From positions 1-21,347 of IMG/VR virus record IMGVR_UViG_3300046507_000905: a DNA stretch of 21,347 nucleotides, one strand, 5' to 3'. Both the position numbers and the translations under genes were made by a program. Below, piece by piece: positions 19,795 through 21,347 of the stretch. The notes beneath the pieces were generated by a model. That model saw nothing but the letters and a program-made list of their open reading frames with translations, was not told the origin of the DNA and made no database searches. This stretch comes from a virus. Position 1 is the stretch's first letter; every line of letters begins with the position of its first letter.

Positions 19795-20241
19795 ATGCCA
19801 AGTGAAACCCGCGGGGTCCGCAATAAAAACCCCGGAAACATCGACTTCAACGCCCGCAACGACTGGCAAGGCCAGCTGGGCAAGGAGACCGGCCCGAACG
19901 GCCGCTTCGCCATATTCGACTCGCCTGAGAACGGCATCCGTGCGCTGGGCAAGCTGCTGATCAACTACCGAGGGAAGCACGGCATGCCGGGCGTGGGTGC
20001 ACCTGGCATCGACACCGTGCGCGAAACGATCAGCCGCTGGGCACCTGGCGGCGAGAACGACACCGAGGCCTACATCAAGGCTGTGGCCCGCGCGGTTAGC
20101 GTCGAGCCGAACCAGCCCATCGACATCAAGGCGCCGGCGGTGCTAGCCGGCATGGTCACCGCCATCATCGCGCATGAGAACGGAGGCAACCCCTACGCGC
20201 CGGCGATCGTTGCCGAGGGCGTGCGGCGGGCGCTGGTATGA
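19795..20241 (+). CDS. Endolysin / lysozyme-like peptidoglycan hydrolase
   Basis: A 148-residue protein of the family beginning with RGVRNKNPGNIDF, which in Pseudomonas phages is annotated as endolysin or virion structural protein. Conserved segments are the N-terminal RG-x-RN-x-NPGNI, FAIFDSPENGIRALGKLLIN, TVRETISRWAPGGENDTEAY, and a C-terminal helical part with IIAHENGG. The fold is expected to be lysozyme-like, but I cannot name the catalytic Glu with certainty. There is no signal peptide or SAR-type anchor, so release would need a holin. The following two genes are spanins, which supports the endolysin role. The ribosome binding site is TGGAGAAAA. The stop overlaps the Rz start (ATGA). 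Confidence 0.82.
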   Translation: MPSETRGVRNKNPGNIDFNARNDWQGQLGKETGPNGRFAIFDSPENGIRALGKLLINYRGKHGMPGVGAPGIDTVRETISRWAPGGENDTEAYIKAVARAVSVEPNQPIDIKAPAVLAGMVTAIIAHENGGNPYAPAIVAEGVRRALV

Positions 20242-20753
20242 CGGCGGCAGGCCGGCTGGCGGCCGTGCTGTTTCTGCTGGCCGCCATCGCTGGCGCGTTG
20301 TACGGCGCCTACCGCCACGGCGTGACCGTCACCGACCTGCGCTGGGAGGCCAAGCAGGCCGACCAGGCCAACCTGCAGTCGAAGGCCTTGGCCGCTGACA
20401 CCACGACCAAGCGCACTGAAGAACAACGCCGGCAGAACGCCGTGAACGAGGTAGCAGATGATTCAAGGAAACAGGAAGCGGCCGCTGCACCTGGTGTTGC
20501 CGCTGCTGGCGCTGCTGCTGACGGGTTGCGAAACGACACAGCCAAGCTGGTCGCCGCCGGTGGCAGCGTGCCCGGTGATCCCAGCCTTGCCGCCAGAAGC
20601 GGGGCAAACCGGCGCGCCGCCATGGTGCTCTCCGGACTGCTCGACAGGTCTGTCGCTCGAAATCGAGAGCTGGCGCAAGGAATTGACGACGCCCGACGCC
20701 GCGGGCTCAGCTGCGAACGGGCCTACGCCGCCCTGACTGGGCCCGCGCCCTGA
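20238..20753 (+). CDS. Inner-membrane spanin Rz (DUF2514-like)
   Basis: i-spanin of 171 residues that joins with Rz1 to disrupt the outer membrane in the last step of lysis. Residues 5-25 form a single uncleaved N-terminal membrane anchor (AGRLAAVLFLLAAIAGALYG). The rest is periplasmic, Ala/Gln/Lys-rich and helical (LRWEAKQADQANLQSKALAA; KRTEEQRRQNAVNEVADDSR), predicted coiled coil. The C-terminal RNRELAQGIDDARRRGLSCE followed by RAYAALTG is typical for DUF2514-type Rz proteins. It overlaps the endolysin by 4 bases and contains the whole Rz1 gene in the +1 frame. Its stop is 1 base from the stop of the convergent gene on the other strand. Confidence 0.88.
   Translation: MTAAGRLAAVLFLLAAIAGALYGAYRHGVTVTDLRWEAKQADQANLQSKALAADTTTKRTEEQRRQNAVNEVADDSRKQEAAAAPGVAAAGAAADGLRNDTAKLVAAGGSVPGDPSLAARSGANRRAAMVLSGLLDRSVARNRELAQGIDDARRRGLSCERAYAALTGPAP
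20458..20736 (+). CDS. Outer-membrane spanin Rz1, nested inside Rz
   Basis: o-spanin lipoprotein of 92 residues encoded entirely within Rz in the +1 frame, the same arrangement as in lambda. The signal peptide (HLVLPLLALLLTGC) ends in lipobox LTGC with Cys24. The mature part is proline-rich (PSWSPPVAACPVIPALPPEA), as usual for o-spanins, but about 69 residues long, somewhat longer than lambda Rz1, with a charged ending (LEIESWRKELTTPD). The start is the ATG at 20458, with GAGG 6 bases upstream inside Rz. Start, lipobox and proline content together make chance unlikely. Confidence 0.88.
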   Translation: MIQGNRKRPLHLVLPLLALLLTGCETTQPSWSPPVAACPVIPALPPEAGQTGAPPWCSPDCSTGLSLEIESWRKELTTPDAAGSAANGPTPP

Positions 20754-20754
20754 G

Positions 20755-21045
20755 CTATTGCGTGTGGTCGCCATAGACGTAGCCCATCTGCTTGGTGGCC
20801 GCCTGCGATTCCTTGAGGTAGACGGCGGAGAGGGAGGTCGTGGCCTTCCGCAGATCCGACTGCAGGGTGTCGCGCTCAGCTGTCAGGGTGTCGACCATGA
20901 GCACCAACTTCCTGATGTTGGCCTTGGCCTGGCGCAGGTCCTGCTGGTATTCCTCGATCTCGGTCGCCAGCAGAACGGTCTGCTGCTTCCACATTTCTTC
21001 GGGGGTAGGGATGCCCAGGCATCCGAAGTCGTCGTCGGAATCCAT
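20755..21045 (-). CDS. Small coiled-coil protein under a predicted SOS promoter
   Basis: A 96-residue acidic to neutral protein on the - strand. The N-terminus is acidic (MDSDDDFGCLGIPTPEEMW). Residues 20-70 are a long helix with heptad character (EIEEYQQDLRQAKANIRKLV; TLTAERDTLQSDLRKATTSL), so a dimeric coiled coil is likely. No family is recognised. The start at 21045 is preferred because CGAG lies 8 bases upstream; an in-frame ATG at 21051 is the alternative. A sigma-70-like promoter overlapped by a LexA-type palindrome lies directly upstream. Its 3' end is convergent with Rz, with one base between the stop codons and no terminator, so its transcript would be antisense to the lysis genes. 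Confidence 0.72.
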   Translation of the reverse strand: MDSDDDFGCLGIPTPEEMWKQQTVLLATEIEEYQQDLRQAKANIRKLVLMVDTLTAERDTLQSDLRKATTSLSAVYLKESQAATKQMGYVYGDHTQ

Positions 21046-21061
21046 GATCATTGCTCGATAT

Positions 21062-21083
21062 ATACTGTATGGGCGTACAGTAT
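21062..21083. promoter_or_regulatory. LexA-type SOS box
   Basis: Perfect palindrome with 8-base arms: ATACTGTA (21062-21069), TGGGCG, TACAGTAT (21076-21083). The core CTGT-N8-ACAG is the gamma-proteobacterial LexA operator, including the flanking TA that strong boxes have. It covers the -10 and transcription start of the predicted promoter for the - strand gene at 20755-21045, so LexA would block it until DNA damage. Confidence 0.82.
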
Positions 21084-21105
21084 TCGAGGCTGTGCGGATG
21101 ATCAA
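21077..21105 (-). promoter_or_regulatory. Predicted sigma-70 promoter overlapped by SOS box
   Basis: Read on the - strand: TTGATC (21105-21100), 17-base spacer, TACTGT (21082-21077). The -10 lies inside the LexA palindrome. Transcription would start near 21070, giving a leader of about 25 bases before the ATG at 21045. Confidence 0.62.
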
Positions 21106-21122: not shown

Positions 21123-21347
21123 CTACTCCCACTCGATCCTTTCGTCGACCATGAAGGCGGCCAGGTCCTGCCATGGGCGCAGGTCGATCCCGGCGCGCGA
21201 GCATGTTGGTTCGTGCTGGAAATCGCAGCTGGAGAACTGGACGAATTGGGCGGATCGGCATTCGGTGCAGTGCACGGATGTGGAGTGGATGCGCCAGGCG
21301 CGCTTCCAGCGTTCCAGTGGCAGTTCATCGGTTGCGGCTTGGGTCAT
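21123..21347 (-). CDS. Cysteine-rich small phage protein, unknown function
   Basis: Open frame of 74 residues on the - strand whose first Met coincides with the window edge, so the real start could lie further out. It contains Cys27-x2-Cys30, then Cys41, His45 and Cys49, a spacing that could bind one zinc ion. The sequence is rich in aromatic and charged residues (LERWKRAWRIHSTSVHCTEC; DLRPWQDLAAFMVDERIEWE). No family is recognised with confidence. It precedes the SOS promoter on the same strand, with 71 bases between its stop and the first possible start of the next gene, so it is not controlled by that promoter. Confidence 0.65.
   Translation of the reverse strand: MTQAATDELPLERWKRAWRIHSTSVHCTECRSAQFVQFSSCDFQHEPTCSRAGIDLRPWQDLAAFMVDERIEWE

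Follow-up and report, generated by a model that had tools for sequence, protein, structure and literature searches.

LexA-controlled genes of prophages are best known from enterobacteria, and those that have been studied are anti-repressors. Such anti-repressors are established in Salmonella and in coliphages, and those of the Gifsy prophages act on repressors that are not cleaved (PMC3121763). Genes for SRAP proteins (DUF159/YedK/HMCES) recur with SOS operons and have been noted in temperate phages, in a paper whose text does not contain the word "coiled" (PMC3765255).

Here we describe a gene that appears to be under LexA control. It lies at one end of a viral record of 21,347 bases (the window, by which we mean the whole stretch of DNA analysed) that resembles tailed Pseudomonas phages. 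We consider it moderately probable that a temperate Pseudomonas phage carries it as an accessory gene under LexA control, with a probable part in DNA-damage tolerance. Genes for a repressor and an integrase are absent from the window, a 21,347-nt fragment, and its lifestyle is therefore read from relatives.

The coiled-coil gene and its operator

The features on which the argument depends are as follows.

19795 to 20241, plus strand: endolysin-like protein (phrog_873)
20238 to 20753, plus strand: Rz-like spanin (DUF2514, phrog_312), convergent with the coiled-coil gene
20458 to 20736, plus strand: Rz1-like gene (phrog_11621), nested within Rz in a different frame
20755 to 21045, minus strand: coiled-coil gene, 96 amino acids, N-terminal motif LGIPTPEEM and then one long helix; no Pfam, NCBIfam or PHROGs model
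21059 to 21087, minus strand: alternative promoter resembling that of E. coli recA, -35 TCGAAT (21087-21082), 17 nt, -10 TATATA (21064-21059); the spacer holds the operator
21062 to 21083: LexA-type operator, perfect inverted repeat ATACTGTA-N6-TACAGTAT
21077 to 21105, minus strand: predicted promoter, -35 TTGATC (21105-21100), 17 nt, -10 TACTGT (21082-21077); the -10 overlaps the operator
21123 to 21347, minus strand: small open reading frame upstream of the operator, 74 amino acids, running to the end of the window; a weak relative lies in L177

The minus-strand coiled-coil gene that had been noticed from the bare sequence is borne out, both as an open reading frame and in its predicted fold. 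Of the two ATGs in the frame (21051 and 21045), the second fits better with the relatives and with the distance to the box, and from it a protein of 96 residues is read (MDSDDDFGCLGIPTPEEMW...YGDHTQ). The AlphaFold model is a single helix over residues 17-97, with pLDDT values of 96-98 over most of its length and a mean of 88; the helix probably pairs as a coiled-coil dimer. Comparison with the nearest relative (L002, 72-73% identical) reveals purifying selection, with a dN of 0.18, a dS of 0.50 and a dN/dS ratio of about 0.36. We are in little doubt that this is a selected protein-coding gene. The window ends exactly on the start codon of the small open reading frame listed above, and the record of the nearest relative likewise stops at the start codon of its coiled-coil gene, leaving the operator region outside. 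That both records end on start codons suggests that they were trimmed at gene borders.

The operator lies 19 nt upstream of the gene. As first noted, it is a perfect palindrome, ATACTGTA-TGGGCG-TACAGTAT, whose arms of 8 bases each (21062-21069 and 21076-21083) are 100% complementary. The LexA-type sequence within it, TACTGTATGGGCGTACAGTA at 21063-21082, occurs once in the window, and its core, CTGTATGGGCGTACAG at 21065-21080, is the sole exact CTGT-N8-ACAG of the window and a full match to the LexA consensus. The longer 12-letter form, TACTGT-N8-ACAGTA, has an expected frequency of 0.00 in 100 dinucleotide shuffles. The core also overlaps the predicted promoter, as expected of a member of the LexA regulon.

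The promoter itself is less clear. The TTGATC-17-TACTGT pair proposed in the initial annotation is present, and when 42 non-redundant promoters of the family are averaged its position has the best sigma-70 fit; on the other side, it matches the consensus at only 8 of 12 positions, falls below the threshold of the scan tool, which did not call it, and has a -35 sequence that is not itself conserved in the family. The main alternative is the recA-like layout, in which the operator sits between the -35 and the -10; in its favour, most relatives keep a CTCGAt element immediately before the box. In both predicted layouts the operator would cover the promoter. Further out, about 20-40 nt before the box, many relatives share a conserved stretch resembling CGTCGCCTCAAATCGC, which may be a promoter element, the site of another regulator or part of the attachment region.

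A Pseudomonas family that keeps its box

To ask how far the gene and its box occur together, homologues were collected by protein sequence only. With the window protein as sole query, viral contigs yielded one relative and genomes yielded none, and a five-sequence alignment was required. The window protein has the three marks of its family: an acidic stretch at the N-terminus, the LG-PTP-E motif, which is near-invariant among members, and a long helix. Searches of Pfam, NCBIfam, PHROGs and the PDB returned nothing for the family beyond coiled-coil noise. Two members carry other names in public records: MF975720.1 VW6S_23, of phage VW-6S, is annotated as "defense against restriction protein A" (DarA) and OP626800.1 WHS04348.1 as "minor tail protein". 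We judged both labels, in VW-6S and in PseuP_222, to be spurious and apparently due to coiled-coil similarity.

The box is almost always found with the gene. Where at least 60 nt of upstream DNA could be read, CTG-N10-CAG was present at 105 of 108 loci and the strict CTGT-N8-ACAG at 102, mostly 16-18 nt from the start codon; the three loci without a box look decayed, with a shortened protein or no usable start codon. Another 50 loci, drawn from 399 Pseudomonas genomes and including 20 very divergent ones chosen for weak similarity, kept the box in 47 cases. These loci are partly redundant and not independent, and they reduce to about 42-54 distinct promoter regions once redundancy is removed. 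As background, one Pseudomonas genome of 6.2 Mb holds 71 strict sites, which puts the expectation at about 0.002 for an upstream region of 150 nt. The same host genome has similar boxes before yebG (CTGTATTTATATACAG), before a radical-SAM gene (CTGTATGTGGATACAG) and before a DUF1654 gene (CTGTATGCATATACAG).

Because the box is kept across homologues against so low a background, and because similar boxes precede host genes of SOS type such as yebG, LexA control of the coiled-coil gene is very likely. The SOS control proposed in the initial annotation is thus strongly supported, and we are confident in reading the palindrome as an operator for the host's LexA.

The family was present in 127 of the 399 Pseudomonas genomes; 368 genomes of other Gammaproteobacteria yielded no member, and a search of plasmids with the homologue from record L005 found no relative. 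It is an unnamed, genus-wide family, found with the same switch in about a third of Pseudomonas species. A literature search found no description of this family, of the LexA regulons of the P. fluorescens group or of DUF1654. The L005 homologue itself (L005:4001-4339) has a LexA box and no adjoining recognised phage gene; its neighbours resemble an alpha/beta hydrolase, a PepSY-like protein and a TonB receptor, and the record is labelled "Bacteriophage sp." but looks like bacterial chromosome.

Neighbours of the gene in prophages

A tRNA gene or an integrase is often close to the family gene, which places it at the prophage edge; in most of the phages examined it has the lysis cassette on one side and the attachment site or integrase on the other. 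Phage records bearing the family usually encode an integrase (13 of 15) and a Peptidase_S24 repressor (12 of 15). The record of the window's nearest relative is among those with S24, the window itself having no repressor gene. We conclude with good confidence that this is an accessory gene of prophages, carried near att.

On its downstream side the gene faces a recognised Rz in 93 of 121 loci. In about 52 of the 121 loci of the first survey an SRAP (YedK/HMCES-like) gene follows on the same strand, usually directly; when sizeable downstream genes were scanned with Pfam, 54 of 74 were SRAP. SRAP is not an obligate partner, since it is missing in over half of the family loci and in the window, where the coiled-coil gene abuts Rz instead. 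The SRAP proteins found beside the family (L004:4342-5046 and others) are mostly about 80% identical to that of PseuP_222, and the coiled-coil proteins share only about 30% identity with that of the window. This disparity suggests different rates of change, or exchange.

A second LexA-type box precedes DUF1654 (PF07867) genes by 33-38 nt in several phages that bear the family and in a host genome. DUF1654 genes with such a box are found at L137:2698-3009 (phage VW-6S) and in L198, L202, L203 and L143, and in the record of the nearest relative (L200) the DUF1654 box has the CTG-N10-CAG form, CTGGATGGATATACAG. The gene at L143/VW6S_20 had been considered as YebG; this was rejected when a Pfam scan identified DUF1654, the true yebG being at L139.

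Proposed role, alternatives and known systems

These observations lead us to the following model. In a lysogen, host LexA bound to the operator over the promoter would keep the coiled-coil gene off. Upon DNA damage, RecA would trigger cleavage of LexA and the gene would be transcribed from the prophage; to judge from the operator, this would happen without a fall of the phage repressor. The product, a small protein whose conserved N-terminal motif precedes a long helix, would probably form a coiled-coil dimer. Alone or beside SRAP, it could then contribute to DNA-damage tolerance, as a scaffold or adaptor, during the SOS response and early prophage induction. Among possible jobs we regard this as the most likely because an SRAP gene follows on the same strand in more than a third of relatives; taken by itself, a DNA-damage-tolerance role for the protein is a tentative assignment drawn from gene order. 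A more specific version, somewhat more speculative still, is that prophages have spread a family of SOS effectors to about a third of Pseudomonas species, the coiled coil directing the phage-borne, abasic-site-binding SRAP protein to damaged DNA. Prophages would then carry a portable, LexA-controlled damage-tolerance module that serves the host or the replicating phage DNA.

Small and diverse LexA-controlled proteins commonly act as brakes on division or replication, SulA being the host's own SOS brake on cell division. The coiled coil might accordingly bind a host division or replication protein while the phage replicates, and family members do weakly resemble the coiled coils of YabA and ZapB. 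Those similarities are, however, at the level of coiled-coil noise, no division inhibitor was matched in family or structure libraries, and a brake would leave the link to SRAP unexplained. We think this explanation unlikely.

An anti-repressor, as suggested initially by analogy with Tum of coliphage 186, is less probable again. A protein of this kind, like Tum or GfoA/GftA of Gifsy, would bind the phage repressor and trigger or tune induction, and in its favour the control logic would be the same and the protein is small and encoded outside the immunity region. Yet the S24 repressor of 12 of the 15 records (the other three had no S24 match) is expected to cleave itself on induction, making an anti-repressor unnecessary in most of these phages. 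Moreover, an anti-repressor should track its repressor, but here very different phages share one N-terminal motif almost unchanged, and PHROGs, Pfam and NCBIfam gave no match to known anti-repressor families. We therefore disfavour the comparison with Tum as a guide to function.

It was also proposed that the transcript matters rather than the protein, with SOS-induced antisense RNA running into Rz/Rz1 and delaying lysis. The arrangement that inspired this idea is confirmed: Rz stops at 20753 and the stop codon of the coiled-coil gene occupies 20757-20755, leaving a single base between them, and a scan found no terminator-like site at the junction. A local inverted repeat nearby (20700-20747) lacks a T run, and RNA folding at the junction is nothing unusual (z = -0.80). 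Read-through into Rz is thus possible in the window, and 20-nt overlaps with Rz recur in relatives. But only 28 of the 93 loci with a recognised Rz show the two genes abutting or overlapping, including L060, where the overlap is probably mis-called; in the remainder SRAP, often, or other genes intervene, and the distance to Rz reaches about 4 kb. The conserved function is therefore not antisense control of lysis, and the protein sequence is itself conserved under purifying selection. As an evolved function the antisense effect is unsupported, and we give it very little weight.

Least probable of all is that the operator belongs to the phage's own repressor rather than to LexA: phage repressors too use palindromes, and the centre of most family boxes contains GC (YGCACA) and is not AT-rich, but the 14 records scanned hold only 1-3 boxes per phage (at the family gene, DUF1654 and a few other places), host genes including yebG have similar boxes, and the box accompanies the gene in many different phages and in a chromosomal copy.

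An unannotated family with a LexA operator thus extends across a large genus and many host species. With it, one can test whether prophages contribute components of their own when the host responds to DNA damage, and SRAP, a protein whose role in bacteria is still under study, becomes a candidate partner. The combination of protein motif and operator also provides a signature for annotating a gene that is now mislabelled or unlabelled.

How, then, does the locus compare with described systems? With tum of 186, antC of N15 and gfoA/gftA of the Gifsy prophages it shares an operator for host LexA, here a predicted one, and a small gene outside the immunity region; it differs in having no detected sequence relation to them, in belonging to phages that mostly have S24-type repressors and in giving no sign of anti-repressor function. 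The DUF1654 genes of Pseudomonas and its phages have no detected sequence relation to the family either, and in VW-6S they lie near the repressor and integrase, not beside the lysis genes; they are alike in having their own LexA-type box in several of the phages that bear the family. The third comparison is with the SOS operons of SRAP genes. The window differs from these in having no SRAP gene, whereas in more than a third of its relatives SRAP lies behind the same promoter region, one that is, on the evidence of its box, putatively LexA-controlled.
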